Below are positions 17,224 through 38,651 of a stretch of 64,000 nucleotides of DNA, one piece after another. The stretch is from Lachnospiraceae bacterium. GTDB taxonomy: Bacteria; Bacillota; Clostridia; Lachnospirales; Lachnospiraceae. The notes under the pieces were generated by a model. It ran no database searches. It was not told where the DNA came from and was given only the letters and a program-made list of their open reading frames with translations. How positions within the stretch are numbered: position 1 is the stretch's first letter; each line of letters begins with the position of its first letter. The DNA lies in contig CAJTBF010000001.1 in the NCBI GenBank assembly GCA_910574195.1, positions 124,001-188,000 on the forward strand, given 5' to 3'. Made by a program: the position numbers and the translations under genes.

Positions 17224-17294
17224 GGCTTCCCCTCTTTTCTGTGCCTTCTCATTTGATCATTCATCAATTCGATCCCTTCTCACTTTTCGGCTTT

Positions 17295-18611: not shown

Positions 18612-18666
18612 CACTCCTTTTTTAATCAGATTATGCCCTCTCCCGGATTTCCCCTGTCACTTAACG

Positions 18667-18775: not shown

Positions 18776-18829
18776 AGAAATATAATATAGATTCTTGCGA
18801 CAATTCTAAGAAGAGAAAGGTTGTTGAAA

Positions 18830-19861
18830 ATGATTTCCGTGATAATCCCTGTCTACAATACAGAAAACTATCTTCACCGCTGTATCGACTCTGTTTTAAA
18901 TTCTGCCTGTGATGATTTCGAAATCATTCTGGTCAATGACGGTTCCACCGACAACAGTCCTGCCATATGTGAAGAATATGCCCGGCGGGACGGCCGTATC
19001 CGCGTTATTCATCAGGAAAATTGCGGTGTATCCTCCGCCCGGAATAAAGGTCTCGACCATTGTCGGGGCGAATGGATTGTATTTGTCGATTCCGATGATT
19101 TTATTTCCAGAGATTTTCTTGGTCTCATCGCTCAAAAAAGCAATCCGGACCAGGATCTGCTGCTCTTCGATTTTGCCAAATGCAAAAACGGGCAGGTCTC
19201 CGCGGACTATCCAGTCCATACATTGACATGGAAAGGAAACGAAATGCGGCAATTGATCCGGCGGATCCTGGTGCCGCAGCCTTTCTATGCAAACGGAACG
19301 GCCGATTTCCGTTCTCCTTGTGCAAGAGCCTATAAAAAATCCATTCTGGACCGCTATTCCATCCGTTTCGCCCCCGGCCTGGCCGTCGGGGAAGACCTGT
19401 TATTTAATATGGAATATCAGTTGAGATCCAGATCCTGTACCTATCGTTCCATTCCCGTTTATTTTTATGATATCCACGCAGGTTCCGCAACCCATGGTTT
19501 CCGGTCCGGGCTTCTGCCAAATCATGCCCGGCTGCAGCAACTGCTGAAAAAACGGTTGGAACAATGCCGCATGTTTCCTCTTCTGAAAAAGGAGTATGCT
19601 TCCTATTGTCTGGAAAATCTAACCTATGTCCTGATCTGGGAAGTATTCAGTCCCTTAAATCCTGGTTCCTACCGCTCCAAATGCCGGATGTGCGCCAAAA
19701 TGCAGCACAATCCGATCTACAAAGAAGCGATGAAATCCAATCGGAAAACCGGGATTCTGCCCAGAAAAATCCTGGTATTCTTCTTTCGCCTGCACTGTTA
19801 CCGCCTCACGAGCCTGTTCTGCCGGATCAGTTATCTTCACCTAAAAGGAAATGATTTCTAA
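18830..19861 (+). CDS. Family 2 glycosyltransferase on the opposite strand
   Basis: The ATG at 18830 is preferred over two upstream TTG codons because GAAAGG lies 9 bases upstream. The 343-residue product has the GT-A core: ISVIIPVYNTENYLHRCIDS, then VNDGSTDNSP (35-44) and FVDSDDF (85-91), where DSDD binds the metal-nucleotide sugar. The C-terminal 150 residues are basic and helical. It is the only rightward gene inside the locus and has its own promoter. Its stop overlaps by 4 bp the stop of the leftward GT2 gene. That arrangement suggests a later insertion or separate control. Confidence 0.88.
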   Translation: MISVIIPVYNTENYLHRCIDSVLNSACDDFEIILVNDGSTDNSPAICEEYARRDGRIRVIHQENCGVSSARNKGLDHCRGEWIVFVDSDDFISRDFLGLIAQKSNPDQDLLLFDFAKCKNGQVSADYPVHTLTWKGNEMRQLIRRILVPQPFYANGTADFRSPCARAYKKSILDRYSIRFAPGLAVGEDLLFNMEYQLRSRSCTYRSIPVYFYDIHAGSATHGFRSGLLPNHARLQQLLKKRLEQCRMFPLLKKEYASYCLENLTYVLIWEVFSPLNPGSYRSKCRMCAKMQHNPIYKEAMKSNRKTGILPRKILVFFFRLHCYRLTSLFCRISYLHLKGNDF

Positions 19862-20874
19862 TTTTTTTCTTTTCTGCCGGCTATTTTTCGATAAACAGGA
19901 TAGAGGTTCTCTTCCACCCATCCATTTACAAACCAGTGCCAGAGAATCTCCTTCCCTGCTTCGCCTGCACGGAATCCGCCGCACCTGTGAAGCCAATATA
20001 ATGCGCGGATTGCGGCTTTCTTGCGTCCGTATTTCAGGGCAATCCGATATCTGCGCCGCGCTTTCCAGCAGAGGATCCGCTCCCGGGATTCCCTGTCTGT
20101 AATTCCACAGTTCTCTGCAATCTCATCCACCAGTTTTTCATAATCCCTGTACTTTTTTTCTTCCTGCGCCTGCGTCAACGTCCTTCTGGAATGACTGCCC
20201 TCCCTGACCGCCACCCCGTACAGCTCTTCTTCAATCGTAGGACATGCATGGCGGTACAGAAACGGCAGCAGCATCTGAAAGTTCTGTCCCACCTCATACT
20301 CCGGTATCCGCCGCATTGGGTAAACCGCAAAAAAGTCTTTCGTCCGCAGCATATAACATCCGCAGCAGACAAAGGTTTTCAATTCCAGGACATCCCAGAA
20401 CAAATCCTGTTTTTTCAGATCTCCTCTCTGCTCATCCGCTTTTTCGCTTCTGTCTCCTGTCTTCGCGTCAAAATAATAGGAAAGCGACCGGACGCACGCA
20501 TACTGTGGGTGCTCCTGTAAAAATTCCACTCTGCGCCGGACGGACTCCGGTTCCAGATAGTCGTCGCTGTCCGGCCAGATCAGATATTCCCCCGTCACAT
20601 ACACAAGTCCTCCATTGAGAGCCGCGGACGCATTCCTGTGTTCCGCCCGTACAACGCGGTATCCGTACCCCTTTGCCGCAAATTTTTCACAATAGCTTTG
20701 TGCCACCCGAACGGTCCCGTCCGTCGAGCCGTCATCCACAAGAATCATCTCTATGTCCGGATAGGTCTGATGCAGTACGGAATCCAACATTTGGGACAGA
20801 TATTGTTCTCCGTTATAGACCGGCGTCACAATCGACACCAGGCCCTCATGATATTCCTGTTGTTTTTCTTTCAT
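19858..20874 (-). CDS. Family 2 glycosyltransferase
   Basis: This 338-residue GT-A enzyme has VSIVTPVYNGEQYLSQMLDS, LVDDGSTDGT (about 45-54) and IWPDSDDYLE (DSDD at 102-105). The C-terminal region is rich in Arg/Lys and Trp, as in cytoplasmic polysaccharide GT2 proteins. It is the last gene of the apparent operon that starts at the pel promoter, 4 bases after the ABC exporter gene. It probably extends or decorates the repeat unit; the sugar is unknown. Confidence 0.88.
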   Translation of the reverse strand: MKEKQQEYHEGLVSIVTPVYNGEQYLSQMLDSVLHQTYPDIEMILVDDGSTDGTVRVAQSYCEKFAAKGYGYRVVRAEHRNASAALNGGLVYVTGEYLIWPDSDDYLEPESVRRRVEFLQEHPQYACVRSLSYYFDAKTGDRSEKADEQRGDLKKQDLFWDVLELKTFVCCGCYMLRTKDFFAVYPMRRIPEYEVGQNFQMLLPFLYRHACPTIEEELYGVAVREGSHSRRTLTQAQEEKKYRDYEKLVDEIAENCGITDRESRERILCWKARRRYRIALKYGRKKAAIRALYWLHRCGGFRAGEAGKEILWHWFVNGWVEENLYPVYRKIAGRKEKN

Positions 20875-20878
20875 TTGT

Positions 20879-22582
20879 TCATCTCACCCGTATAATCTTC
20901 TGATCTGCAATTCGATATACCACGTCACATTCCCTGGCCAGACTCATATGATGCGTTACCATAATTAATGTTTTATCCGCTTTGATCTGACGGATGGAAT
21001 CAATCACTGCCTTCTCCGTTTCCATATCCAGCGCAGCCGTAGCTTCATCCATGACCAGAAGTTCAAAATCTTTATAAAGCGCCCTTGCCAGTGCGATCCG
21101 CTGTCTCTGCCCCCCGGAGATAGTCACGCCCCTCTCCCCGATGACCGTGTGCATCCCTTCCGGCATTTTCTGAATATCCTCCCAGATCTGGGCACAGCGA
21201 AGGCATTCCGCCACCCGGTCGTCGTCAATCTGTTCCTCCTCCTCGAAAAAGGCCACATTATTTCGAATCGTTTCCCCATTCAGATAGACCGTCTGGGGGA
21301 TATAACTGACCATTGCTCCCAGATTGGCCTTACAGGGCCCCTTCCCGTCCGACCGGGTGACAATGTCATAATCGTCAAAAAAGATCTGTCCGCCCTGGGG
21401 CCTCAAAAGCCCCAGCAGCAGATCCACAAAGGTGGTTTTTCCCACTCCCGATGCCCCGATCACCGCGATGGAGCGACCCACCGGAATCTCAATGGAAGCA
21501 TTCTGAAAAATGAGGGCATTGTCAGAATAACCGAAAGTCAAATTTCTGACAGAGACCCCCTTTTGAAGGGTAACCTTTTTCTCCCGGACCGTCCGGGCGC
21601 GCTGTTCCTCTTCTTTCAGCAGCGTATAGTCCGCCATAGCCTCCCTTACGGCCTCATAAGGTTTTTTCGCAAATTCGATTCGATGCATTGCATTCAGAAT
21701 GTTGTAGGCCATCGGCAGCATACGCACCAGCGCCGTAATATACACTACCATGGGCGCAAGAACGGCCGCAAGATTCGTTCCGAGCACCAGAACCGCCGCA
21801 AGAACCGCAAACATGGCCGCCATAATCAGGTTTTGCAAAATCACCGCAATACTGCTGATCTTATACTTAAATTCCCCCTGGATCTGCGCGAATGCCTGAC
21901 TTGCATCCTCATACTTCCGAAGCACAAAGGCGAAGCGGTCGTCAATCTTCATTTCCTTAAAGGAACCGTATGCAATGGTGATCTGCGAGTTTGCCCTGAT
22001 CGAACAATCTCTGCTTTTTTCTCCATATTCCTGCATCCGTTTCCGCATCCGAAAGAAAATCACAGCCATGAGAAGCAGCAGGATTACACAGCTTACCACT
22101 CCAAGCCATTTTGATACGCAGATCAGTACCACGGCAAATCCGGCCATCGTGATTCCGTTGATCCCTGCTTCAATAAAATCTACGATAATTTGGATGCTGT
22201 TTGTCGTATCGTTGCGAACGGTATTCATGGCCTGCATAACGCTTTTTTTATTGTGTTCCATCAGATCTTCTTTGAGCAGCAATTCATAAATCTTCATGGA
22301 CAGCTTCTGCGCGCCGTCATACACGAACCGGTTTGCAAGTTTGCTTTTGTACAGTTCAAACAGGCATTTCAAAATAGAAACCAGTACCATAAAAAATGTG
22401 AATGCCGTCAATCCCGGATCTGCCTCGTTCTCACGCACGACAATATTTATAATATAAATAATTACAGAAAAGCTGAAAATATCCACAACCGGACTAATGA
22501 AACTGAAAACCGCGTAGATTTTCCACATTTTCTGTTCTTTTCCATCCAGAATTCCCGTCAAATATTGGAACATTTCTCTCAT
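20879..22582 (-). CDS. ABC transporter, fused permease and ATPase (type IV exporter)
   Basis: The 567-residue half-transporter has six membrane helices (about 25-300) and a nucleotide-binding domain. The domain carries Walker A GASGVGKTT (376-384), signature ISGGQRQR (488-495), Walker B LLVMDEA (508-514) and the H-loop histidine at about 545. The architecture is that of MsbA/PglK-like lipid or lipid-linked glycan flippases. Within this locus it may flip a lipid-linked glycan or lipid-phosphate sugar (inference). It overlaps the preceding FrhB-like gene by 4 bp (ATGA). Confidence 0.92.
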   Translation of the reverse strand: MREMFQYLTGILDGKEQKMWKIYAVFSFISPVVDIFSFSVIIYIINIVVRENEADPGLTAFTFFMVLVSILKCLFELYKSKLANRFVYDGAQKLSMKIYELLLKEDLMEHNKKSVMQAMNTVRNDTTNSIQIIVDFIEAGINGITMAGFAVVLICVSKWLGVVSCVILLLLMAVIFFRMRKRMQEYGEKSRDCSIRANSQITIAYGSFKEMKIDDRFAFVLRKYEDASQAFAQIQGEFKYKISSIAVILQNLIMAAMFAVLAAVLVLGTNLAAVLAPMVVYITALVRMLPMAYNILNAMHRIEFAKKPYEAVREAMADYTLLKEEEQRARTVREKKVTLQKGVSVRNLTFGYSDNALIFQNASIEIPVGRSIAVIGASGVGKTTFVDLLLGLLRPQGGQIFFDDYDIVTRSDGKGPCKANLGAMVSYIPQTVYLNGETIRNNVAFFEEEEQIDDDRVAECLRCAQIWEDIQKMPEGMHTVIGERGVTISGGQRQRIALARALYKDFELLVMDEATAALDMETEKAVIDSIRQIKADKTLIMVTHHMSLARECDVVYRIADQKIIRVR

Positions 22583-23724
22583 ACCGCTCCTCCGGTTGTC
22601 TTCCTGTGTATTCTCCCAAAAAGCGCGCGGACGATCGCCGCCGCCCTATACAGCATCTGAAAGATAGAAAAAGGGAGTTTTCTGTAAAACAGCATAAAAA
22701 TTCTGCGGTTTCCGGAGACCTCTGTGGGACCCGATAGCCGCGGCTGAAGCACATCCTTCTCTTCGCAGGCAAACCAGAACAAATCTTTTTTGACTTCTTC
22801 CCATATTTCCCTTGCTTTCTCTGTATGGAGAATGACCATGGAAGTTCCCATGCCATCGTCCATCTCCGGTTTCACTTTTTCTATGCCCCAGAAATCCCCG
22901 ATGGTGAAATCTCCGTTTCTCTCCACGGTACAGAATCTACATGTATGGCAGGAAGGACGCAGGATCAGATTGGAAAAGTACATACTGCAGTAAAGATCCT
23001 CATATAGGGAATATGCATACTCTTTTCCTTCGATCACATAAGAACAGGTATGTCCATGATCATGCTTCCTCTTATCCCGGAAAGAAAAATCCGTCATTTT
23101 CCCGTCATATTTTTGTTCAAGCCATTTCACATAGTCCCTCCAGATTCCGGGGGACGGCACGCCGTAACAGACCAGATTCACAAGAAGCAGCCTGGGTTCC
23201 TCCCGATTCAGATAGAGCAGTAACCCCTGTACCTGACAGGGGGTTCCGCAGAACAGAACCCACCGTTCCTGCCGAAGCCGCCTTTCTATGCTTCGGTAGA
23301 TTCCTTTCAGGCTGCTCTGGACATACTTTGTTCTCTGGATCGCTGCAAGATCCTCCCGGCGGCTGATTTCCTGATGCGTCACCTGCATTCCCCGCCCATA
23401 CGCGGCGCCATACACAACGCCTTGTCTCTCCAAAACAAATTCTGCCAGAACCGGGAACATGCCGCCGGAAGAACTGGATGAACGCAGTTTCTCCTCCTTT
23501 GCCCGTACACCAAAATATCGGCGGGACACTCCCCTTTCCACACGGCGGTTTTTCACAGGACATACCTGGACACACCGCTCGCAATGGATACATCCCTCTT
23601 CCGTCCTCCTCGGATAACGAAACCCCTCCCGATCAACTGTCATCCGAATCGCACCCTCCCGGCATACGTCCGCACACGCGCCGCAGCCGCAGCACGCCTC
23701 CTTCCTTTTATATAACTGCTCCAT
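22579..23724 (-). CDS. FrhB-like ferredoxin protein linked to polysaccharide pyruvylation
   Basis: This 381-residue protein starts with two 4Fe-4S motifs: CGCGACADVC (about C12, C14, C17, C21) and CIHCERCVQVC (C45, C48, C51, C55). A coenzyme F420 hydrogenase/dehydrogenase beta-subunit-like domain follows (SSGGMFPVLAEF, then FCGTPCQVQGL, then FTIGDFWG). Proteins of this family are commonly encoded next to polysaccharide pyruvyl transferases in exopolysaccharide loci, as here, yet their reaction is unproven. Additional cysteines near 235-245 (RPSCHTCRFC) could hold another cluster. It is probably a redox enzyme acting on the glycan or its precursor. Confidence 0.85.
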   Translation of the reverse strand: MEQLYKRKEACCGCGACADVCREGAIRMTVDREGFRYPRRTEEGCIHCERCVQVCPVKNRRVERGVSRRYFGVRAKEEKLRSSSSSGGMFPVLAEFVLERQGVVYGAAYGRGMQVTHQEISRREDLAAIQRTKYVQSSLKGIYRSIERRLRQERWVLFCGTPCQVQGLLLYLNREEPRLLLVNLVCYGVPSPGIWRDYVKWLEQKYDGKMTDFSFRDKRKHDHGHTCSYVIEGKEYAYSLYEDLYCSMYFSNLILRPSCHTCRFCTVERNGDFTIGDFWGIEKVKPEMDDGMGTSMVILHTEKAREIWEEVKKDLFWFACEEKDVLQPRLSGPTEVSGNRRIFMLFYRKLPFSIFQMLYRAAAIVRALFGRIHRKTTGGAV

Positions 23725-23803
23725 ATTGCATCCTTTCTCGGTATTTTTTCATCACCTGTACCTCCTGCTTTGCAGTACATTTTCCGTTTCTGTTCCTACT
23801 GCA

Positions 23804-25951
23804 TCAGTGCGCTTCTATATTTTTCAGAAGGAATTCTCCCGATACCCTCACATACTCCTCTCTTTTCTGTCTCACGGTTTTCCAGTCTATGGGCGCATGG
23901 ATATCGCTTTGTTCTTTCTCCTCGCACAGTCGTTCCTCTAATCCGTGAATTTTCAGAATATTTCGAACCCGTTCTCCGAGATGACTGTGTACAAATGTCA
24001 GAAACTGCTTCTCATACAGGATACTAAACGCAACCGCATGGAACGAATTCGAAACCACGTATGCCGCCTTATGGATATATCCAAGCAATTCTGCCGGGCC
24101 GGCCGTATAATCTATTTCAAATCCAACCTCTTTTTCCTGCCCTCCGGCGCACACTTCGAGAACCGGCAGACCCATCTCCTGTGAAAGTCTTTTCACATAA
24201 TCCGTCATAACCTGATTGGGTTCCGTCACATAAAGCAGAATATAGTCTCTGTTTTCCGTCCATTTCGGTATCCGCTCCACTCTCTCCCAGGATTCTTTCT
24301 CCAAAAAGAACACCGGATCCAGAACCGCCGTCACCTCTTTTCCGGAAAGTCTCTCCACATAAGGAACCGCAGCTTCCTCCCGCACCGATATGACGTCCAC
24401 ATACCGAATTAATTTTGAAAATTTCGATTCCTCTTTGTCCGGAAGGTTCGAACTGCCGAAGCTTGCCGCATAAGAGATCACTTTTTTCTTCCACAGATTG
24501 CGGAATGCGCCAAAATATGCTTTTCGCAATCCGCAGGTAATCTCCGGATTCCAGATCTGGTCACTCCCCACGATATAGAATGCATATTTCAGTCTGTGCA
24601 GTCCCAGGGACGACAAGATTTTCCTCTGTTTTTTCTCCACCAGACAGGTATAGCGAAAATCGTTCATGTTCCGGCGCTGCCGGGAAAAAGCTTCCCTTGT
24701 CCGCAGATGGGCACAGAAGCCTTCCCACAGATGAAAGAGACCCCAGATCCGTCCCCTGACTCCCCGGATGGGCGCATAGGGAATCCACCAGTGTCTGCCC
24801 GTCATATAGATCGGTTCATAACGGACAATCTCCGCCGCTTTCCCGTTTCTGCGTAGAAAAGTCTTCAAACCATACGCCTGCAGCATGGCGCCAAAATTAT
24901 TGGAGCAATGAAACGTAAGAATCCCGATCGCAGCCTGCTTTCTTCTCATCACAAGCGCCTCCTTCCATTTTAATAGCCGGGGAATTTGCCGATTCACCGG
25001 GACATAGACGGGATAACAAAAAAAACAAAGGTAGTACAGCAGCTTCTCACTCCAGAGAAGCCGCTCAAACATCGGATGCCGCCTTTCTTCCGCCGCGGTC
25101 TTTCGCAAACTTCTGTACTCTGCCCGGTTCCCTGCATTTCTCTGCATCTCATAGTTTTGCTCTATCTGTCTGACACAAAACCTTTCCCACGTCAGCGCAA
25201 AATCGACTCGTCCCTTTTGGTACTCCCTCTCCCGGATCCTCCGGCTGCTTTCAAAATAGCGCTTTCCTTTTCTCATCCCGGAAGACTGTGTCACACTCTC
25301 CGGATGAATCCTGTAATAATACCAGGCTTTCTGCAGATAGACAGCCCGTATCTTCCGGCAGATAAAATCATACAAAAACAGGGTGTCCTCTCCATTGAGC
25401 AGGCTTTCGTCAAATCGCAGAGATCCAACGGAAGTCCTGCGCAGCAGTTTTCCGCCGATGCCGGACAGTTCATTTACATATTTCCTGTGAAACCAGATTT
25501 CTGTTTCTGTCCCTTCCGCTGTCTGCCGCCGGATACGGAAATTTTTTCCCGGATCTGCCCCCGCCGCCGCGCTGAATTCTTTCCAATCCATTTTCCTGTA
25601 ACCACAAAATACCAGATCTGCCCTCTGTGTTTCCGCCTGCCAGAACAACTTCTCAATCAGTGCCGGGTGAATCATGTCATCGCTGTCCAGGAAAAACAGA
25701 TAGTCTCCCACCGCCATTTGCATCCCCTGGTTCCTTGCCGCGGATACTCCTCTGTTCTCCTGGCGGTACAACCGGATCCTTTCGTCACTGCGCGCCGTCT
25801 CTTTGCAGATTTCCGGACCACAATCCGTAGAACCGTCGTCCATCACAAGGATTTCCAGATCCTGAAACGTCTGTCTCCGTACGGAATCCAGACACTGTCC
25901 GATGAATTTTTCCGAATTATACATCGGAATGATAACCGATACCTTTTTCAT
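23804..25951 (-). CDS. Fusion of a GT2 glycosyltransferase with a polysaccharide pyruvyl transferase
   Basis: The 715-residue product has two enzymes. Residues 1 to about 330 are a GT2 domain: VSVIIPMYNSEKFIGQCLDS, then MDDGSTD and FFLDSDDM, with DSDD at 89-92. From about 337 to 710 it is a pyruvyl transferase of the CsaB/WcaK type: GILTFHCSNNFGAMLQAYGL, then YIVGSDQIWN, AYVVSNSFHAVAFSILYEK and the final helices. Pyruvyl transferases move pyruvate from PEP to a sugar as a ketal. A Met at 335 begins the second domain, so fusion of two adjacent genes by stop loss is likely. It overlaps the upstream GT2 gene by 4 bp. Confidence 0.9.
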   Translation of the reverse strand: MKKVSVIIPMYNSEKFIGQCLDSVRRQTFQDLEILVMDDGSTDCGPEICKETARSDERIRLYRQENRGVSAARNQGMQMAVGDYLFFLDSDDMIHPALIEKLFWQAETQRADLVFCGYRKMDWKEFSAAAGADPGKNFRIRRQTAEGTETEIWFHRKYVNELSGIGGKLLRRTSVGSLRFDESLLNGEDTLFLYDFICRKIRAVYLQKAWYYYRIHPESVTQSSGMRKGKRYFESSRRIREREYQKGRVDFALTWERFCVRQIEQNYEMQRNAGNRAEYRSLRKTAAEERRHPMFERLLWSEKLLYYLCFFCYPVYVPVNRQIPRLLKWKEALVMRRKQAAIGILTFHCSNNFGAMLQAYGLKTFLRRNGKAAEIVRYEPIYMTGRHWWIPYAPIRGVRGRIWGLFHLWEGFCAHLRTREAFSRQRRNMNDFRYTCLVEKKQRKILSSLGLHRLKYAFYIVGSDQIWNPEITCGLRKAYFGAFRNLWKKKVISYAASFGSSNLPDKEESKFSKLIRYVDVISVREEAAVPYVERLSGKEVTAVLDPVFFLEKESWERVERIPKWTENRDYILLYVTEPNQVMTDYVKRLSQEMGLPVLEVCAGGQEKEVGFEIDYTAGPAELLGYIHKAAYVVSNSFHAVAFSILYEKQFLTFVHSHLGERVRNILKIHGLEERLCEEKEQSDIHAPIDWKTVRQKREEYVRVSGEFLLKNIEAH

Positions 25952-26730
25952 ACGACTTTATCCACACTCAAAAGACCGACGCCCTCGTCCATTTTCAAAA
26001 CTTTCACCCGGAACAGCACGACCATTACACTGAACAACACCCGAAGCATATACCAGAACGGTTTCAGTCCCGAATGCATACTCTTCCCTTCTTTCCTCGT
26101 ATGCATCACTGCCGGAATCTCCACTACCTTAAACCGAACCAGCATCATGAGAATCAACATATTGGCATCCGGATATTTGTCGTCAAAATGATCATATTTG
26201 GAATAGTAAAGAAATGCTTTTCGGCTTAATCCCTGCAGTCCCGTGGTCGGATCCGCGATTTTCTGCCCTGTCGCCGCCCATATGAGAGTGCGAAACAGGG
26301 AATAGACGATTCGTTTCGGAAGAGAAACCGGAAAATCGGTGCTGTCTTCCATAAATCTTGCTCCAAGCACGATATCCGGACACCGCCCGTCGGCATCTTG
26401 TTCTTTGAGTTTCCGATAGATGACGGGCAGATTACACACGTCATGTTGTCCGTCCCCGTCCATCTGAATCACATATTGATATCCTCTTCGCACCGCATAT
26501 TTATAACCGGTCTGCAGCGCGCAGCCATATCCCATATTATAAAGTTGAGAAAGCATGGGATACTGCATCTTTTTTACAATCCAGTTTGTCGCATCCGTGG
26601 ACGCATCGTTTACAATCAGAATATCTGCCTGCTCTTTCATTTCCAGTTGTTCTAGTTGTGTCAGTAGTTTTAAGATATTCTTTCCTTCATTGTAAGCCGG
26701 TATCATAATCAATAATTCTTTTTTCTCCAT
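25948..26730 (-). CDS. DPM1-like family 2 glycosyltransferase (polyprenyl-phosphate sugar synthase)
   Basis: This 260-residue enzyme has LLIMIPAYNEGKNILKLLTQ, VNDASTD and QMDGDGQHD (DxD at about 93-98), plus GARFMEDSTD and the PTTGLQGLSRKAF segment. These are the marks of dolichyl/polyprenyl-phosphate mannose or glucose synthases. It would make a lipid-phosphate-linked sugar for use outside the membrane. A DUF2304 protein, a frequent partner of such enzymes, is encoded two genes upstream. A GT-C-like protein that could use the product is encoded in the same operon. The start overlaps the GT4 gene by 44 bp. Confidence 0.88.
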   Translation of the reverse strand: MEKKELLIMIPAYNEGKNILKLLTQLEQLEMKEQADILIVNDASTDATNWIVKKMQYPMLSQLYNMGYGCALQTGYKYAVRRGYQYVIQMDGDGQHDVCNLPVIYRKLKEQDADGRCPDIVLGARFMEDSTDFPVSLPKRIVYSLFRTLIWAATGQKIADPTTGLQGLSRKAFLYYSKYDHFDDKYPDANMLILMMLVRFKVVEIPAVMHTRKEGKSMHSGLKPFWYMLRVLFSVMVVLFRVKVLKMDEGVGLLSVDKVV

Positions 26731-27946: not shown

Positions 27947-28343
27947 TTTCTTCTTTCTCTCCTTCCTGCACCTTTTCCAGCATCTGCCTCAGCCTGTCAA
28001 GCTCTTTGAGAATCGCCTCGTTCTCCTGATTCAGCAAAGCCACATGCATGGCTATTTCCCGTTCTTTCAGAGTCAACTGGGAGATCGTCACGCTTGTCCG
28101 GAATTCTTCAAACAAAAACAAGGCGCCCACACAGGAAAAGGCCAGTCCGGTCCCGGAGGAGAGCTGTCTGGTCCACTGTGAAAACACAGGGATTACACCG
28201 ATTAAAAGCAGCACAAACCCCAGCAGTTCCCAGATTACCGTATAGTTCACGGTCATCTTTTTATAGGAATGCATCAGAAAACTGACTGCCATAAACGAAA
28301 TTCCAACAAAACCGATTCCAATTCTTATCATATTGCTGTCCAT
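27858..28343 (-). CDS. DUF2304 membrane protein
   Basis: The 161-residue protein has three hydrophobic helices (about 5-25, 33-52 and 64-80) and the LTLKEREIAMHVALLNQENE coiled segment typical of DUF2304. It then runs into a low-quality tail of about 30 residues that overlaps the GT4 start in another frame. The tail is probably not conserved; a lost stop codon is one explanation. DUF2304 proteins are usually encoded beside DPM-like GT2 enzymes and are thought to assist them in the membrane. The gene starts 2 bases after the pelG stop. Confidence 0.82.
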   Translation of the reverse strand: MDSNMIRIGIGFVGISFMAVSFLMHSYKKMTVNYTVIWELLGFVLLLIGVIPVFSQWTRQLSSGTGLAFSCVGALFLFEEFRTSVTISQLTLKEREIAMHVALLNQENEAILKELDRLRQMLEKVQEGEKEENAEKSSVCCEYAGTRGGGDGASGIVEKTG

Positions 28344-28345
28344 CT

Positions 28346-29809: not shown

Positions 29810-29831
29810 TGTGCTTTCTCCTCTTTCTTTT

Positions 29832-31262
29832 CTATTCTTCCCATTGAAATCCCATGCTGTCTGAAAAATCTTTATAGATGTTCCGGTACTTTTCCCGCAT
29901 ATGTTCCATCTGATATCCGGAAACGACTCTTTGGTATCCGTTTTCCCCCATCTGTAAACGCTTCGGCTCATTCCACGCCAACTCCACCATGGCCTGCGCA
30001 ATCTCTTCCACATTCATAATATGGGTTACGATTCCCGCCTCCCCAAATGTATCCTGCTCTCCGTAGATGAGGCCGTGGCAGTTTCCCACATCCGTCGCTA
30101 TGGCCGGCTTATGCGCGGCGTAACCTTCCAGGATCGTAAGCGGCTGCCCTTCACTGAGACTGGTGAGGATCGTCATGTCCATCCTTCCCAGATAATCCCG
30201 GATGTCAATTTTTCCGGTAAATACCACATCCGTAAGTCCCAGGGCTTCTACCTGTTCCATACATTCCCGGGCATATCCTTCCTCCTCATCCATCGGCCCC
30301 ATAATCCAGAGCTTTAGTTTCGGTTCTCTCTCCCTGGCAAAATGAAATGCCTGGATCAGTGTCTTCACATCCTTGATCGGCGTTACACGGAGTATGGCGC
30401 CCACATTGATCCTGCCCTCATCCTCCGGTGTCTTGCCCGGAAGATTTTGCAGCCTCTCTATGGATACTCCGTTTGGCGTTACCATGGTTTTTTCTACGGG
30501 ACATCCCAGATCAATCTGCAGTTCCCGGGCATATTCATACAGGCTGGTGACAAGATCGGCCTTGTCATATGCCAGTTTCGACATTTTCTTAAACTGATCA
30601 ATCCATATATTTTTATATACTCCCTGCACCCAATCCGCACGGAGCAGTTCTTCCTCCCGTTCTCTTGTATAGATCCCATGTTCGGAAATCAGCAGGCGGC
30701 TGCCATACAGAACCTTTGCCATACTTCCCAGGACTCCCGCATATCCGGTGGCCACGCAGTGGTACAGATCCGCATGCGGAAGCTTCATCTTTAATGCAAA
30801 CAGCAGCGGCAGATACACGGAACGCACCGTCCACAGAAAATCCGAAAAAACAAGTTGACTGTAATGCAGATCATAATATTCTCTTACAATTTTAAGAAAA
30901 TCTTCTCCCATCAGAAACCGGTCCAGAGAAATGGATGTTTCCTGAAACAGACGAAAGATCGTTTCCCAATCCACACGCCGGTTACAGACCAGGCTTCGAA
31001 ATGCCTCATACTCCGACTTACGCAGTCTTCGTTTCTTCCTGCCCTTCCGGTTCCAATCCACATCCTCCAGGTACAGTTCATGCACTTCCGTCACATTTTC
31101 GGGAAGCTGATAGGTAAATTTTCCGCTCAGGGAACGATGACTGATGATCGCTAAAATAATAAATTCCAATTTTGGAAAGGATTGGATCAAACGGTGGACC
31201 CAACTGGAAACGCCGCCTGTCACATAGGGATAACATCCTTCTACTACGATACAGACTTTCAT
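29832..31262 (-). CDS. pelF: PelF-like glycosyltransferase (Pel polymerase)
   Basis: The start at 31262 is set by GGGAAGGGAGAAATCAA before the ATG. The 476-residue GT4 enzyme begins with the PelF-specific DUF3492 region (KVCIVVEGCYPYVTGGVSSW). It contains ISEHGIYTREREEELL, the E-x7-E motif in SEGQPLTILEGYAAHKP (about 373-389) and ATDVGNCHGLIYG. PelF uses UDP-sugars (UDP-GlcNAc/GalNAc in studied systems) to make the Pel chain in the cytoplasm. It lies between the DUF2194 gene and pelG, the expected order for Gram-positive pel loci. Confidence 0.93.
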   Translation of the reverse strand: MKVCIVVEGCYPYVTGGVSSWVHRLIQSFPKLEFIILAIISHRSLSGKFTYQLPENVTEVHELYLEDVDWNRKGRKKRRLRKSEYEAFRSLVCNRRVDWETIFRLFQETSISLDRFLMGEDFLKIVREYYDLHYSQLVFSDFLWTVRSVYLPLLFALKMKLPHADLYHCVATGYAGVLGSMAKVLYGSRLLISEHGIYTREREEELLRADWVQGVYKNIWIDQFKKMSKLAYDKADLVTSLYEYARELQIDLGCPVEKTMVTPNGVSIERLQNLPGKTPEDEGRINVGAILRVTPIKDVKTLIQAFHFAREREPKLKLWIMGPMDEEEGYARECMEQVEALGLTDVVFTGKIDIRDYLGRMDMTILTSLSEGQPLTILEGYAAHKPAIATDVGNCHGLIYGEQDTFGEAGIVTHIMNVEEIAQAMVELAWNEPKRLQMGENGYQRVVSGYQMEHMREKYRNIYKDFSDSMGFQWEE

Positions 31263-31283
31263 TTGATTTCTCCCTTCCCGCAT

Positions 31284-33155
31284 TCAGTAATAATATCTCT
31301 CATCGGATGGTTCCAGCAGAATCGTGACTTCTTTGCTGTCCGCCTCAATCAGATAAGCACCTTCCTCCAGTTCCACAAAACTTCCTCCCTCTACGTCCCT
31401 GATCCGGCCGCCGTGATTCCGGAAAACAAACCATACGGTTCCCTCCACTTTGTCAATCTGAAGATGAACCTGATTTTCCTTCCGGCTGTCCGAGTAGTCC
31501 AATGTCAGGAAATTGCGGATCCTCACATCGCTCTGGGAAATCGTCGTTCTGTCAAATCCCTGAAAGGCCTTTCCATATACATCCGCATTTCTTACAAATT
31601 CTTTTGCAAGTTTATCCCAGGAGTCCTTTTTCCCCCTTGGATAAACAAGGCGCTTCATGTCACAGCACATGTTCAGGTAGCCCAGCGCCGTCTCCACACA
31701 TCTTGCCCGGAAATCTCTCCGGAAAGAATACTCCGGACCGTCCACCACCGCACGCTGCTCGGTAATATGCTCAGAGAGATAGCCCACAGGACTCACGATA
31801 TCTTCTCCATAATCCCTGACCACGGTCCGCACAGAGGAAAGCAGTTCTGCATGAAGCGCGTCCATTGTTTCCTCCGCATCCATATCCGCCCCATAGAAAG
31901 AGGCAAATTCATAACCGCCGACTGCTTCCGTTATAAATTTTTGATCTTCAGAAAGCTTGTCCGACATAGAGATACCCGACACATTGGAACTCGACCAGCC
32001 AATTTCCACTGATTTTTCATGGAAATTTTTCATATATTCCGAAAGCAGCTTCGGATCCGGAAGATTCTGGTCTGTGTAGTCATATTGAGGCGTCATCAGA
32101 CAGGTAATCCCGATCTCATAATCCTGCAGAGCCGTTGTAACATTGGGCCAGACCGTCTCCTGATAGAGATGCCGCATGGGACGTTCATAATATTCTTCCA
32201 TCACTTCCCTGTTCTCATCAGCCAGACCCGGATAACCGGCCAGCACCAGATTCTGGGCATTTACAACCGGATAGAGCTCATAAGAGTACATCTCCGCCGA
32301 CATAGCCGAGAGAATGCCAAGCCCTTCCATTCCTTCCATATATCCGCCGTTTACGGCAAATACATAAGCCGATCCAAAACTTTTTCTCCAGATCACAACA
32401 GGATCCTCTTCCGGATCCGCCTCTTCTTCCTTCGAAATTCCCTTCATATATACTTTGGTTCCGGAGGTCAGCTGATACCAGGGAAAGGTAAGCTCCATAT
32501 CCTGCCATTTTCGTTCCTCTTTTTCTTCCGCCTGATACACCATCTCTCCGCCCAGCAGAAATCCTTCGTACAAATGAATTCCCGATACGGCCGTCTCTTC
32601 CTGCACCACTTCCCGGATACCCAGCAGTTCCCGCACCTGCCTGCAATCTCTTATCACAGATACATCCGGAAGTGTTGCGAATACCAGATGGGTTCCCCCT
32701 TTAATACATCCCAGCAGGAAATCCGTCTCCGTCTCGTTCTCCCAGTCTACATATGCGGAATCAATCACCAGCATCTCCAAAAGTTCTTTGCCTGTTTCCC
32801 CATGGTCACAGGATGCAAGCGTCTGATAACCGGCAAAATCCCGCTTCGTATAGGAAGCCCATTCCCTTACGACTTTGGCGGGCATCCCTCCTTCTTCCCC
32901 AATACATGCCACCCGATTGCGGGAAACCGAGATCGACGCCTCACCGGCTGTCTCGTCCGTGGTTTTCTGTTCTTTCCTTTGCCCGTCCGGAACATAGATG
33001 TTCACTTTGGACGGATAATCTTCCGCCGTCCCGGTCGCAAATGCATTTTCCTTATAATCATTGGAAAAGTCTTTCATGTTGTTGAGAAACATACACAAAA
33101 AAAATATAACCGACATTAATATTGTCATAGTAAAAAAATTCCGGCGCGATATCAT
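31284..33155 (-). CDS. DUF2194 protein, PelA-like extracytoplasmic component
   Basis: The 623-residue protein has an N-terminal membrane anchor (about 9-25) and a long extracellular part. A Rossmann-like region (about 75-290, with LEMLVIDSAYVDWE and VFAVNGGYMEG) is followed by a barrel-like region (about 325-500). A beta-domain closes the C-terminus. This matches DUF2194 proteins, which take the PelA (deacetylase/hydrolase) position in many Gram-positive pel operons. I cannot point to an intact zinc triad of a polysaccharide deacetylase, so activity is uncertain. The ATG overlaps the preceding stop (ATGA). Confidence 0.8.
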   Translation of the reverse strand: MISRRNFFTMTILMSVIFFLCMFLNNMKDFSNDYKENAFATGTAEDYPSKVNIYVPDGQRKEQKTTDETAGEASISVSRNRVACIGEEGGMPAKVVREWASYTKRDFAGYQTLASCDHGETGKELLEMLVIDSAYVDWENETETDFLLGCIKGGTHLVFATLPDVSVIRDCRQVRELLGIREVVQEETAVSGIHLYEGFLLGGEMVYQAEEKEERKWQDMELTFPWYQLTSGTKVYMKGISKEEEADPEEDPVVIWRKSFGSAYVFAVNGGYMEGMEGLGILSAMSAEMYSYELYPVVNAQNLVLAGYPGLADENREVMEEYYERPMRHLYQETVWPNVTTALQDYEIGITCLMTPQYDYTDQNLPDPKLLSEYMKNFHEKSVEIGWSSSNVSGISMSDKLSEDQKFITEAVGGYEFASFYGADMDAEETMDALHAELLSSVRTVVRDYGEDIVSPVGYLSEHITEQRAVVDGPEYSFRRDFRARCVETALGYLNMCCDMKRLVYPRGKKDSWDKLAKEFVRNADVYGKAFQGFDRTTISQSDVRIRNFLTLDYSDSRKENQVHLQIDKVEGTVWFVFRNHGGRIRDVEGGSFVELEEGAYLIEADSKEVTILLEPSDERYYY

Positions 33156-35482
33156 AGTCCCCTCTCCTGCTCTTTCTTTGTCCCCCCGGATCCGTTGTAT
33201 CCATAGTCAATCGCAAAATTATACAGACTATATTCATTTTGTTTTACACGGTAACACACAAACTGATCCGACTCATAGTAGACCTCCATCTCATTGGGAT
33301 AGAGTTCCCGAAAAGCCTGCGCCCAGGCGTACAGATGAGACATCGTGATCCACCGGGCATCCCCGATATAGGGCAGGATTCCCGGCTCCTTAGGGATAGG
33401 TTCTTCCGCACCTTTCTGCGATATGCTTTTTTCCGGCTTTTCCATATTGATGTAATCCCGATACAGAAGCGGTACTTTCTCGATAAAGAAATAGATCGTA
33501 GACGTGGGAATGGTAATCCGGGTATCCTCATCGATGGAACGCATATCTCTTAAAAATTTGATACTTTCATAATGGTAGGCCAGATCATATTCCTCTATCA
33601 TCTGCCGCTCATCGTTGGCAGAACAGATGGTCCATGTCTTTCCCTTATTTTCCTGAATGATATTCTCAAGACAGGTGATGGCTTCGTTGGTCTCATACGC
33701 GCTCACACAGACAGGAGCCCTCACTCCTGTTTTTACCGTCATCACACAGGCCGCCGCAAAGCCTGCAAGAGAACAAAAATGAAGAACCGCTGTCTTTCGA
33801 AACATCAGAAACAATACGCCGTCCACACAAAGGCTCCAGACGACCGGAATTCCATATCCAAGGTACACGGAATAACGGGAAACTTCCAGAATCTGTATGA
33901 TTCCCAGTTCCACCGCCGCCTGAAAAACAGCCATCACCGCCATATAAACACTGACCGATACCAGAATCGCTCCATACTCCGCCTTTCGAAACAGAATCCA
34001 CAAGATTCCCAACACAAAGAGCAGACCGATACTTCCCACGATTACCTGCGCGGTTTCCATATCGTTTGTCACGTAGTAGTCCATCCTGTCCAAAATAGTC
34101 TCCAGCACCGCAGGCCGCTCTTCTTTTTTCTCACTTTCGTTCCTTGCCTGCATCCCCCCGGAAGAGGAAGACTGCCACTGATTCAGTCCCCAGTTCAGAG
34201 ACGCCTGCAAAGGGGTTCCCGTCACAAAAGCCGCTCCCATGGGGAGTATGGCAAGCAAAAGCCCTAATAGTCCCGCCGCCACGATCCTTTTCAGATATTC
34301 CCGGCGAAAGACCCGAAAACAAAATCCCACTCCGATTGAGAGACAAAATAAACCGGTAATGAGGGTATCGTAAAAATGAACCGTAAACGTGAGAGAAACG
34401 CTGATGGCAAACAAAGCCAGATAGAGACCGGAAACTGTCCATCGTTCCGCCGCGCTTCCGCCGCCTGTTTCTGCCACTTGGGAGACCTCTGACAGCTCCG
34501 CCGCATTTCCGGTACCCGGATTCAACGATTCGCCCGAAACGGCCTCTTCCGTGCTTCTCCTTTTCCCCCATGCAAACTGACAGGCCAGATTTTTTTCCTG
34601 CAGAAAAGCCATCGCAAAATAGGCCGCCGGCAGGATAAAGACCATCCCCAGTTCCTGCGGCAGGGTTGCATGATATCGGATATACGTATATTGATAAAAC
34701 CGGTCCGACACAATGTAGATCATGATTCCAATATACGGCGCATATTTGGACTTACACACACTTCGCAGAAATGCCAGCAGCATCAAGTGAATCATCAGCG
34801 TCTGCACCACATAAAAAAGCCGGAGCAGTACATACACAGGGATTCGAAACACCCCATGCAGATAATATAAAAGACAATGCATACCGAACGGATACACCCC
34901 GTCTGCAAAAATATGGTTATGCCCCATCTCGTTAATCCAGTAATTATGCAGTACCATATCCGAGGCGCAGTATCCATAGACATGGAGCGCATTTGTTCCG
35001 TACATATAGACCAACAGCACAATCAAACCAGATACAAATACAATTTCCAATCCAAATTGTTTTACGGATTGCCTGCATTTCCTGCTTATGGCAATGAAAA
35101 ACCGTCCCATCCTTTTTTGCATCCGAAGAAGCAATGTCTTTCTTCCCGTCTCCCCTCCCAGAACAAGCAGAATCCGGCGCAGTCTCTTTTCCAGGTGCTC
35201 TGCAAAAGATCCCCGGTGTTTTCGAACGGCCCTTACCATAAACGGCGCCAGCGTTCCGAAGAACAATGTCACCTGGCAGGATATATGTAACAACTGTAAC
35301 AGGTATACCAGGTTGATGATATAAAAATTTCCAATCAGAAAATAGATCATAAACCTTACCGGCACACAGGCAAAACCGGCAAGCTGTCTGCGGAGAAAAA
35401 GCCAGGGAAGCAGCAATACTACGATAACATAGGCTGCCGCGATTCCACATAACTGCAGAGCAGAAAGTAGTGCCATTGACAT
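33152..35482 (-). CDS. Polytopic membrane protein, possible GT-C glycosyltransferase
   Basis: This 776-residue protein has about 12-14 membrane helices and a soluble C-terminal domain (about 600-776). The first large outer loop (about 161-200) carries Asp and His residues in GYCASDMVLHNYWINEMGH (D175, H179, W182, E185), a pattern like the catalytic first loop of GT-C enzymes that use polyprenyl-phosphate sugars. A cytoplasmic low-complexity insert lies around 310-345. The gene sits between pelE and the PelA-like gene and is not part of the classical pel set. The GT-C function is inference, supported by the DPM-like GT2 in the operon. AAGGAGG fixes the start. Confidence 0.65.
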   Translation of the reverse strand: MSMALLSALQLCGIAAAYVIVVLLLPWLFLRRQLAGFACVPVRFMIYFLIGNFYIINLVYLLQLLHISCQVTLFFGTLAPFMVRAVRKHRGSFAEHLEKRLRRILLVLGGETGRKTLLLRMQKRMGRFFIAISRKCRQSVKQFGLEIVFVSGLIVLLVYMYGTNALHVYGYCASDMVLHNYWINEMGHNHIFADGVYPFGMHCLLYYLHGVFRIPVYVLLRLFYVVQTLMIHLMLLAFLRSVCKSKYAPYIGIMIYIVSDRFYQYTYIRYHATLPQELGMVFILPAAYFAMAFLQEKNLACQFAWGKRRSTEEAVSGESLNPGTGNAAELSEVSQVAETGGGSAAERWTVSGLYLALFAISVSLTFTVHFYDTLITGLFCLSIGVGFCFRVFRREYLKRIVAAGLLGLLLAILPMGAAFVTGTPLQASLNWGLNQWQSSSSGGMQARNESEKKEERPAVLETILDRMDYYVTNDMETAQVIVGSIGLLFVLGILWILFRKAEYGAILVSVSVYMAVMAVFQAAVELGIIQILEVSRYSVYLGYGIPVVWSLCVDGVLFLMFRKTAVLHFCSLAGFAAACVMTVKTGVRAPVCVSAYETNEAITCLENIIQENKGKTWTICSANDERQMIEEYDLAYHYESIKFLRDMRSIDEDTRITIPTSTIYFFIEKVPLLYRDYINMEKPEKSISQKGAEEPIPKEPGILPYIGDARWITMSHLYAWAQAFRELYPNEMEVYYESDQFVCYRVKQNEYSLYNFAIDYGYNGSGGTKKEQERGL

Positions 35483-35484
35483 CC

Positions 35485-36459
35485 TTATCGCCTCCTTGTA
35501 CTGAAAATGCGAATCAGTTCCAACGTCTCACGATCAATCACCACGTCTGACCTTTTCAGGGCATCCAGCGTCTCAAAGAACCGTTTCCTGTCCTGCCTGG
35601 CAAAATAAAGTTTCAGCTTACAGGTGTACGTTGATAATTCTTCCGGATAATGTTCTTCCATGCGCAGACACCATTTTTCGACACTTTCAAAATCTTTCCT
35701 CTCCAGGATCCGCAGACAGACCGCCTCATATCTTTCCAGGGTAATTCTGGAGGCGTCCTTTTCATAAAGCAGCGCGGCAACCTCCTTCATTTCATTTACA
35801 TATTTGTGCTGCTCCTGCTCCGAAAAAACATGCTGCTTTAAAATACTGTCCATATAATCCAGAAGGATCTCCTCACTTTCGGTATCAGAATGTTTTTTTC
35901 CCCGGATCTGTATCAGTTGTTTTTGTACAAAGATACGGAATTTGTTCAGTTCATCGGATAAAACTGCCGCCGCATAGTGGGAAGTCTCCGAATCCTCACT
36001 GTCCAGCGCAAGCGCAAGAGATGCCAGTGAATTCCGGATATCCTCGCGCATTACGTTCACAAACACCGAACGCAGATCCTTTTTCTCATTCACCAGAAGC
36101 GCTTCTTCCAGAGGAATGATATTGCGTTCTGACTCCTCATCCGCTTTTTGATTGGTCTTTACGCGTTCTTTGCTGAAAACCACATCCGCCAGATTTGCAT
36201 CCCTCCAAAATACAAACAGATAGAACAGATGTCCCATCAGAAAGAACAACGGAACGATAACCGGGCACAGAATCATTTCCACGAATCGAATCACATACGT
36301 TCTTCTGTTATCATAGAAAACTTCCGTCTCTTCCTCGTCCGCCAGTGACGCACGAGCCGGAACAATCAGTATTATCCCGGCCAGCAGGTAGAGAAGTGAC
36401 ACCATAAAATTAACGGCAAGAATAATCAAAAAAAAGAACTCTTCTCTGCCCATGGTCAT
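35485..36459 (-). CDS. pelE: PelE-like membrane/TPR protein
   Basis: The 324-residue protein has two N-terminal membrane helices (about 9-35 and 58-88) and a helical cytoplasmic part with TPR-like repeats (about 145-310). The SLASLALALDSEDSETSHYA segment (about 143-162) is the conserved PelE signature. PelE joins PelD and PelF in the inner-membrane synthase complex. The ATG overlaps the pelD stop by 4 bp (ATGA), with GAGGAGG upstream, so translation is coupled. Confidence 0.88.
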   Translation of the reverse strand: MTMGREEFFFLIILAVNFMVSLLYLLAGIILIVPARASLADEEETEVFYDNRRTYVIRFVEMILCPVIVPLFFLMGHLFYLFVFWRDANLADVVFSKERVKTNQKADEESERNIIPLEEALLVNEKKDLRSVFVNVMREDIRNSLASLALALDSEDSETSHYAAAVLSDELNKFRIFVQKQLIQIRGKKHSDTESEEILLDYMDSILKQHVFSEQEQHKYVNEMKEVAALLYEKDASRITLERYEAVCLRILERKDFESVEKWCLRMEEHYPEELSTYTCKLKLYFARQDRKRFFETLDALKRSDVVIDRETLELIRIFSTRRR

Positions 36460-38651
36460 AATACTGCCTCCTCATCAATCCGGCACTCCACACCCAATTC
36501 ATGAAAGCGTTCTATGACACTGCCTGCATTCTCCTTATTTGTATTGGGTAGCAATGCATACAGTTTCCCCTCTTTGAAGAATCCCAGATAATCCGACTGC
36601 CGTATAGTGCTGCCCAACGTACCTGCCACATACTCATAGTTCCATTCACTGGTGAAAATTTCCAGCAGAATATATTCTGTCAGCCCTTTCTCTTTTGCGT
36701 CAAAGAATGCCTTTACCAGATGTGTAAAGGCGCTTTCCTCCAACACGCTTGTTCCTTCCACATAACGCTGGTTTCTGAGTGCATCCAGATAACGGTTGGC
36801 ACGAACGACCGCGTTCTGGATCAGGTAACCTACGATGGTCAGTCTGTTTGCCTCCCCAAGCGTCATACGTTCCCATGGAACACTCCAAAGCATGATGATG
36901 AGCTGCATGGAATCCTCCGAGTACACTGCACTCGCCATCATCGGCATATTTTCTACCATATTCCGGTTAATATATACCCGATGTTCTTTCAATTCTTCAT
37001 ATAATTCCCCCATCCCCGTATATTGAATCGAATTTCCCAATCTGCGTGCTTCCGGCGAGGTGGCGGAAAAGAGCCGCGCATAATCTCTGTTGGCCACGTT
37101 ATATACCGCCACGTCTCTGCAGTTCATTAGATTGGACAGCACCTGCGCCGCATAAAAGAGCACTTCTTCCGGCCCATATCGTTCCAGTGTGGAAGATACT
37201 TCGTAGATTTTCCCCAGGCTTTCCCTGTGATTTACGACCTGGGATTCAAAGTTATGTTTCAATTTGACATTACTCTCATTGATCTCTTCCATATCCTGTA
37301 ACTGTCCGTTCAGATATTGGACTCTGCATCTTCCCTCTTCCCGGATATAGCACAACTGATCCTTCATATATCCCACAACCAGGCCGACAATAAATAGCTG
37401 TGCCATCCAGACGTATGTATTGTAGTCAAGCAATACTTCGAACAGAGAATGTACCGACATCTGCCGGTAACAATAACCGATCACCGAAAGCAATGCTGTA
37501 AAGACGGCCTGCTGCTGTCCGTGTACAACGGAAAACAACAGCACATACAGCAGATAAATGTCCAGTTTCGCCAGAAACGCACTGTCCGCCGCCCTGTCAT
37601 TCAGGAAAAAAGCCAGTGCAAAAACTGCCAGCGATTCCAAAAACGGAAACAATGCTTTGAAAATCCTCCGGACGAGATTCCAGATTTTCAGCGCCATCCC
37701 GCCTCCTTCATCCTCCTCCGACACGAAAGAATGACTGTGGCGTACCATGTAACGGACAACCTGTCTGACTCCCTTTTCACAGTTATGGAAAATCTCATAG
37801 GCAAATTCCTGCTGATATCTGCCGCTGTCCAGAACCTGCCGGCTGCTGGCTCCCACCGTATTGTCAACAATCCTGATACTATCTCCCAACTCTTCCCGGA
37901 TTATCCCGGCAAGCTGCCTTTCATTCACCGTCTCCATGGAAGAGACATGGTAAATTGCATGCTTCTGTTCCTTCGCACACAACACCCGGTATGCCAGTTC
38001 CACAGCATCATTTAGATAAATCAGAGAGAATGCCCTTCTCTCATTGATTGAGATCCGGCCCGTCTTCAAGGCTTCCAGACACATCCGGACACATTCCTGT
38101 TCTTCTGTCTTTTCCTTCCTTGGGATCCAATACAAATGATCAAACCGAAGGATAATCGTATCCGCCCCCTGCGTTCTTCTAAAATTCTCACAGGTCTCCT
38201 CCCCCTGCGCCAGAGCCATGGCCTTAAACCCTCTGGGGGATACCGGTTCCTCCTCGGCAATATTATCAATATAAATATCCCCGAATACTTCCTGGGAAGA
38301 AAGATAGAAAAACTTTCCTCCTTTGACGATACTGTAAGCCGACAGGATATTTACAAGTCCCGACACATAACGCACCGACTCCTGCCTGGCATCCCCCTCC
38401 CAGTCAAAATTCGTATCATACGCCCCCAGAAACAGAACCACGTCCGGCCTGGTACTCTCAAAAATATCCTTGATACTTCCACTGTCATACGGAAAATTAT
38501 ATTTTTCAAATACCCGCTTATAAGAAAAACGAGGATTCTTCTGCCCCGTCAACAGGTATACGCGATGGCCGTTCTTTGTCAGTTTGCCGATCATCTCGTC
38601 CATCAGAACACTTCCACCACCGATCAACAACACAACCATATGAGCCACCAT
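36456..38651 (-). CDS. pelD: PelD-like c-di-GMP receptor with N-terminal SDR domain
   Basis: This 731-residue protein has four parts. Residues 1 to about 310 form an extended-SDR/epimerase-like domain (VVLLIGGGSVLMDEM, FFYLSSQEVFGD, LRFDHLYWIP). About 325-445 hold four membrane helices. About 485-630 form a GAF domain after a coiled coil, and about 640-731 form a degenerate GGDEF domain. In the last, the active site reads KEGKL (693-697) while the inhibitory-site motif RQSD (684-687) keeps RxxD, the c-di-GMP ligand of PelD. The SDR domain lacks the Y-x3-K pair. The exact start is uncertain (38651 or 38639). Confidence 0.9.
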   Translation of the reverse strand: MVAHMVVLLIGGGSVLMDEMIGKLTKNGHRVYLLTGQKNPRFSYKRVFEKYNFPYDSGSIKDIFESTRPDVVLFLGAYDTNFDWEGDARQESVRYVSGLVNILSAYSIVKGGKFFYLSSQEVFGDIYIDNIAEEEPVSPRGFKAMALAQGEETCENFRRTQGADTIILRFDHLYWIPRKEKTEEQECVRMCLEALKTGRISINERRAFSLIYLNDAVELAYRVLCAKEQKHAIYHVSSMETVNERQLAGIIREELGDSIRIVDNTVGASSRQVLDSGRYQQEFAYEIFHNCEKGVRQVVRYMVRHSHSFVSEEDEGGGMALKIWNLVRRIFKALFPFLESLAVFALAFFLNDRAADSAFLAKLDIYLLYVLLFSVVHGQQQAVFTALLSVIGYCYRQMSVHSLFEVLLDYNTYVWMAQLFIVGLVVGYMKDQLCYIREEGRCRVQYLNGQLQDMEEINESNVKLKHNFESQVVNHRESLGKIYEVSSTLERYGPEEVLFYAAQVLSNLMNCRDVAVYNVANRDYARLFSATSPEARRLGNSIQYTGMGELYEELKEHRVYINRNMVENMPMMASAVYSEDSMQLIIMLWSVPWERMTLGEANRLTIVGYLIQNAVVRANRYLDALRNQRYVEGTSVLEESAFTHLVKAFFDAKEKGLTEYILLEIFTSEWNYEYVAGTLGSTIRQSDYLGFFKEGKLYALLPNTNKENAGSVIERFHELGVECRIDEEAVL

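Follow-up and report, generated by a model that had tools for sequence, protein, structure and literature searches.

A Pel-type operon of gut Lachnospiraceae whose surface polymer is probably decorated rather than deacetylated

A thirteen-gene pel operon with one insert in its core

The DNA analysed here (the window) is a 64,000-nucleotide stretch from the 3.96 Mb genome of a Lachnospiraceae bacterium (assembly GCA_910574195.1, contig CAJTBF010000001.1; G000:C1:124001-188000 in our numbering), and the element in question is a Pel-type polysaccharide operon. It comprises 13 genes, all on the − strand between 38651 and 19858. An open reading frame check found every frame unbroken at its expected coordinates, in line with the original prediction of a Pel-type operon of the Gram-positive kind, laid out as a single leftward series of genes. 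With the PelG start taken as 29809, all but one of the 12 joints are overlaps or gaps of at most 22 bases, which agrees with the earlier estimate of overlaps or less than 25 bases at most joints; the single wide joint, of 79 bases, separates the GT2-pyruvyltransferase gene from the FrhB gene. The promoter-like site and the first nine genes are as follows (all statements on transmembrane (TM) stretches come from plain hydropathy scans).

38750-38722, − strand: promoter-like site TTGACA-17-TACAAT, 11 of 12 consensus bases, 71 bases before pelD
36456..38651, − strand: PelD; N-terminal degenerate SDR, TM region, GAF-like part, degenerate GGDEF with an RxxD (RQSD) site
35485..36459, − strand: PelE; two N-terminal TM-like stretches, then a soluble remainder
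33152..35482, − strand: membrane glycosyltransferase of 776 amino acids with the GT-C fold in its predicted structure; D175, H179 and E277 invariant in 56 sequences
31284..33155, − strand: PelA (PelADA) homologue, PF09960/DUF2194, without deacetylase motifs MT1 and MT2
29832..31283, − strand: PelF, GT4 polymerase; NCBIfam NF038011, 382 bits (cut-off 100)
28346..29809, − strand: PelG, exporter; PF16933, 478 bits (cut-off 29)
27858..28343, − strand: DUF2304 small membrane protein; PF10066, 36.9 bits (cut-off 25.5), two TM-like stretches; the domain of GacJ/WpsB-like proteins
26687..27946, − strand: GT4 glycosyltransferase, conserved with the locus (domain search)
25948..26730, − strand: DPM-like GT2, candidate undecaprenyl-phosphate-sugar synthase (domain search; DPM synthase 5mlz, E 2.5e-6)

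From their family scores we regard the identities of PelF and PelG as certain, and the two genes adjoin each other, which is the mark of a Gram-positive Pel operon. A PelG start at 30013 was rejected as a probable over-extension; the PelG domain begins at residue 69, a Met, so that the start is most likely 29809. PelD and PelE were recognised because each falls into one profile family with the PelD or PelE of CotH-type pel loci, and all four pel genes named by the original prediction could thus be placed. PelE has no match in the Pfam/NCBIfam scans, and it also has the expected place and the two TM-like stretches. For PelD the same scans returned the SDR part, which has lost its YxxxK motif, plus a DUF4118 match below cut-off; the diguanylate cyclase match to PDB profiles was weak (E 0.25), and the GAF part was assigned by homology with other PelD copies (frames below 480 amino acids excluded from the PelD set) and from the published description (published work is cited throughout from the accessible parts of the papers). 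The RxxD site, of the cyclic dimeric GMP (c-di-GMP) type, is kept despite the degenerate GGDEF domain. The genome holds five GGDEF and two EAL regions, so that c-di-GMP turnover is plausible; gating of the synthase through the RxxD site of PelD is likely, judging from the sequence.

For the 13 proteins, the Pfam/NCBIfam scans listed no PelB/PelC-type match, as anticipated for a system without outer-membrane genes, and no Wzy- or chain-length-type family. The strong promoter that had been proposed fared less clearly. The site scores well and lies close to pelD; the region contains 24 promoter-like sites against a mean of 24.1 in shuffled sequence, so that the case for it lies only in its score and place.

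The DUF2194 protein had been taken for one of the inserted genes. This was ruled out: PF09960 is the PelA deacetylase family, and as the protein represents the fifth core gene, the Gram-positive pelDEAFG core is complete. It shows the CE26/PelADA fold and lacks the Asp-Asp of MT1 and the HxxxH of MT2; with both motifs missing, it is filed here as a PelA homologue and not as a deacetylase. In B. cereus PelADA the key residues are D262-D263 (MT1), H350xxxH354 (MT2), R458 and H488 (MT5) (PMC13254593). The true insert in the pel core is, on its predicted structure, one membrane protein of the GT-C fold, as the original prediction had suspected. Its invariant D175 is an acidic residue on the extracytoplasmic side and, from its place, would be the catalytic Asp.

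Two architectures among relatives, one with PelA copies that lack the deacetylase motifs

Of 195 relatives, 33 have a PelG match. In the wider samples, matches occurred in 72 of 397 genomes from the family, 70 of them over cut-off, and in 17 of 398 from the phylum, 13 of them over cut-off. From these, 100 stretches of at most 20 kb were taken, and their genes were assigned with profiles built on the window proteins plus four genes of other loci; not included were PelG places on contig-end pieces or with weak matches in G011, G103, G183, G263, G419, G469, G521, G742, G758, G813, G829 and G868. PelF and PelG occur together in 94 stretches, the window included. At least two of GT-C, DPM-like GT2 and DUF2304 are carried by 45 of them and at least two of CotH, PPP and DUF4956 by 28, none has both sets, and 21, some of them cut by a contig end, have neither. 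Counted gene by gene, CotH and GT-C share a single locus, L045 (1/28 CotH-bearing and 1/48 GT-C loci). Among the stretches that the phylum sample yielded from other families (L119-L127), no GT-C-module locus was seen; one from another family of the same order (L059) is of this type. In L119 and L122, the order is PelD-PelA-PelE-PelF-PelG.

When GTDB genomes were scanned with the GT-C alignment, 347 relatives came up, and the best 80 of them (the named loci) were analysed further; because some organisms are represented both here and among the other stretches, the counts from the two sets are not independent of each other. Of these 80, 73 have PelF or PelG; six of those without either are cut off by the contig end, and the one remaining is L172. 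The exact order PelD-PelE-GTC-PelA-PelF-PelG-DUF2304-GT4-DPM, read on same-strand genes, is found in 52 of the 63 loci whose sequence continues for 9 kb or more behind the GT-C gene, most of them titled Lachnospiraceae. The conserved unit is the nine genes from PelD to the DPM-like GT2, and the last four genes of the operon are lineage extras; the expectation that the 13 genes would be conserved together holds for these nine, the last four being conserved at genus level only. Anaerobutyricum hallii, Blautia luti, Roseburia porci, Lacrimispora saccharolytica and Schaedlerella arabinosiphila belong to the clade, and the loci titled Roseburia (L150, L159, L169, L176, L188) agree with the window's type over the length that their contigs cover.

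The two architectures differ in their PelA proteins. In an alignment of 94 PelA proteins (frames below 450 amino acids or 250 bits excluded), MT1 and MT2 are both missing in 45/45 copies from GT-C-module loci (one of them a duplicate, L129) and both kept in 24/28 from CotH-type loci. Sorted by GT-C alone, with L128, L033 and L129 dropped as overlapping stretches, both motifs are missing in all 48 copies (47 loci) that accompany a GT-C gene, whereas both are kept in 35 of the 44 copies without one. Both are likewise missing in 71/71 PelA copies of at least 520 amino acids in the named loci. In a PelF tree of 91 rows, all GT-C loci form one clade of 50 rows (Shimodaira-Hasegawa-like approximate likelihood ratio test, SH-aLRT, 99; branch length 0.34). 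On this tree, the motif loss comes down to roughly a single ancient event, retained across a diverse clade, and not to many separate losses.

Some loci have peculiarities of their own. L070, L101, L103 and L107 carry a PelA copy whose HGYNH motif takes the form GYNQ, next to an intact copy in the last three, and in L097, L099, L101, L103 and L107 PelG lies in frames of 1,085-1,108 amino acids with about twice the profile score, as if two PelG domains were fused.

Distal genes and the hydrolase-type gene

The four lineage extras and a fifth gene, which lies beyond the coordinates of the original prediction, are as follows.

23804..25951, − strand: GT2 fused to a polysaccharide pyruvyltransferase, genus-level extra
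22579..23724, − strand: FrhB-like iron-sulphur protein, genus-level extra
20879..22582, − strand: ABC exporter, genus-level extra; best NCBIfam match the PglK lipid-linked-glycan transporter, 239 bits (cut-off 1000)
19858..20874, − strand: GT2, genus-level extra
14827..16227, − strand: DUF4874/DUF4832 hydrolase-type protein, no N-terminal TM stretch; in relatives usually beside the DPM-like gene

The last four genes of the operon recur in the same order in stretches of three genomes of the genus (L034, L042, L047). There, the DPM-like gene and the pyruvyltransferase gene are separated by a hydrolase gene of opposite orientation. L073 also has the first two of these four genes. Genomes of this genus may hold several pel loci of differing make-up, with three, two and two PelG places in G003, G006 and G007, respectively (L034-L036, L040-L042, L044, L046, L047).

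The hydrolase-type gene is the sole DUF4832 region shown by the window's genome. A DUF4874/DUF4832 gene stands directly behind the nine-gene unit in 49 of the 80 named loci, and E184, D244 and E291 are invariant in 87 members of the family from both architectures. In GT-C loci, 70/83 copies in operon direction lack an N-terminal hydrophobic stretch, which is present in 35/40 copies in the opposite direction; it is also present in 14/17 copies of CotH-type loci (organisms overlap between the sets behind these counts). GT-C-type loci have two DUF4874/DUF4832 paralogues: an apparently cytoplasmic one that runs with the operon, and one on the opposite strand that has a TM stretch. The window retains only the form without the stretch. 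The interval between this gene and the operon encodes a GT2 and a SpoIID/LytB-type protein (16231-18614, − strand), followed by another GT2 in the opposite direction (18821-19861, + strand).

A decorated polymer and its alternatives

Our favoured reading, to which we give a probability of roughly 0.6, is that a Pel-like backbone made under c-di-GMP control is not deacetylated but furnished with side chains outside the membrane. PelD, PelE, PelF and PelG would form the gated synthase that extrudes the backbone, with the RxxD site of PelD as the likely switch. At the exit, the PelA homologue would not deacetylate, given its motif loss, which argues against a deacetylated product; it is probably a polymer-binding scaffold. 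Judging from fold, family and co-occurrence, the DPM-like GT2 and its DUF2304 partner would charge undecaprenyl phosphate with a sugar, to which the GT4 may add further units, and the GT-C enzyme would attach the product to the emerging backbone, after a flippase had moved it across; this could be the PglK-like ABC protein of the operon in this genus and one acting in trans elsewhere (four GtrA regions lie elsewhere in the genome). Side-chain glycosylation would then replace deacetylation. In this genus, the distal genes (GT2, pyruvyltransferase, FrhB and ABC) probably introduce variation into the side chain or pyruvylate it. Of the modified, c-di-GMP-controlled polymer that had been proposed, the modification appears probable and the control likely.

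Published systems offer partial parallels. With pelDEADAFG of B. cereus, the window shares five core genes in the same order, a PelD with degenerate GGDEF and a PelA-family protein with one N-terminal TM stretch (PMC7112168, PMC13254593); it differs in the lost PelA motifs, the GT-C gene between pelE and pelA, the added DUF2304, GT4 and DPM-like GT2 genes and the N-terminal degenerate SDR on PelD. The CotH/PPP/DUF4956/DUF4832 pel loci of streptococci and clostridia also have this SDR and a DUF4832-type hydrolase, whereas CotH, PPP and DUF4956 are absent from the window (PMC7112168, PMC12345266). By domain and fold, the candidate undecaprenyl-phosphate-sugar GT2, the DUF2304-type protein and the GT-C enzyme resemble GacI/GacJ/GacK/GacL and WpsA/WpsB/WpsJ; DUF2304/GT2 pairs make undecaprenyl-phosphate sugars in streptococci and lactococci. 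There, however, the acceptor is a rhamnan or a teichoic acid, whereas here it would be the PelF/PelG polymer, and, unlike these systems, the conserved nine genes include no flippase (PMC8035078, PMC8327497, PMC10821137).

Several observations weigh against the decorated-polymer reading. The GT-C fold specifies neither donor nor acceptor, the DPM-like GT2 is far under the equivalog cut-off (PpgS, 71 bits against 370), and so is the ABC protein for PglK. The whole-length fold match of the PelA homologue has only a middling Z, and the N-terminal domain also finds matches in unrelated rows of GH42 and ThuA-like type. As all GT-C loci fall in one PelF clade, the 48/48 loss counts as about one evolutionary event and not as statistical proof, and an independent-pairs test on three pairs gave no significance. 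Nine PelA copies without GT-C also miss one or both motifs: the four GYNQ-type copies, a small separate clade (L069, L116, L117), and L046 and L106, placed inside the GT-C clade of the PelF tree. L148 and L156 have no PelA homologue in the core, and their GT-C gene sits behind PelG. In L172, PelD, PelE, PelF, PelG and the hydrolase gene are on another contig (L225) while GT-C stays with the PelA homologue, and the DUF2304, GT4 and DPM-like genes are on neither of the two stretches examined. Finally, catalytically dead PelADA abolishes Pel in B. cereus (PMC13254593), so that either the GT-C-clade synthase no longer depends on this activity or the reading is mistaken.

It is unlikely, in our view, that the polymer is unrelated to Pel, a capsule or teichoic-like product for which PelF uses another donor sugar and GT-C, GT4 and GT2 help to build the main chain. 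Whitfield 2020 raised this for the Roseburia clusters (S7 Fig, PMC7112168), in which, as in the window, the pel core lies within a larger cluster with GT1, GT2 and DUF genes, and left the matter open; the length of the branch that carries the GT-C loci, the lost PelA motifs and the general capsule type of the distal genes would fit. However, the PelF and PelG family scores are still strong, the Pfam/NCBIfam scans of the 13 proteins listed no Wzy- or chain-length-type family, and the hydrolase family, whose DUF4832 member SIR_1591 disrupts GalNAc-rich polymer aggregates of S. intermedius, stays with the locus with its acidic residues intact. An ordinary Pel system whose GT-C, GT2 and GT4 genes serve an independent wall polymer under a common promoter is still less probable. 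Operons can combine genes of different pathways, and a second, stronger DUF2304 region lies away from pel (G000:C3:227922-228236, L220, 113.9 bits); yet in the 52 loci with the exact order the GT-C gene is lodged within the core, between pelE and pelA, the motifs are lost wherever it is present, and it all but avoids CotH-bearing loci. A decayed locus, suggested by the lost deacetylase and YxxxK motifs and by split frames of core genes in L095, L142 and L179, is very improbable given the retained order, the invariant residues in GT-C, PelA homologue and hydrolase, and the unbroken frames of the window.

The Gram-positive pel operon, the degenerate SDR on PelD and the larger Roseburia cluster were already published in 2020 (PMC7112168), as were accessory modules, so that known Pel systems are not as simple as had been supposed. 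The clade's deacetylase motif loss, the GT-C assignment and the parallel to the Gac system were not found in the literature searched. We put forward more tentatively, as something that may prove wrong as easily as right, that a whole gut-Lachnospiraceae branch of Pel-type loci exchanged deacetylation for extracytoplasmic glycosylation. The former deacetylase would have given up catalysis and become the partner of a GT-C enzyme, which would transfer sugars carried on undecaprenyl phosphate to the growing Pel backbone, and the branch would have gained a further, apparently cytoplasmic protein of the Pel-hydrolase family.

Pel requires the deacetylase activity of PelA in P. aeruginosa and B. cereus (PMC13254593), and a large clade that has the synthase without the catalytic residues makes the role and replaceability of deacetylation testable. 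The analysis also proposes a role for an unnamed GT-C family and corrects the DUF2194 reading in these genomes. Since the clade includes named gut isolates, it points to a c-di-GMP-controlled surface glycan of gut commensals; if the more tentative proposal above is true, the product would be a synthase-dependent exopolysaccharide whose side chains come from a system of the Gac type.
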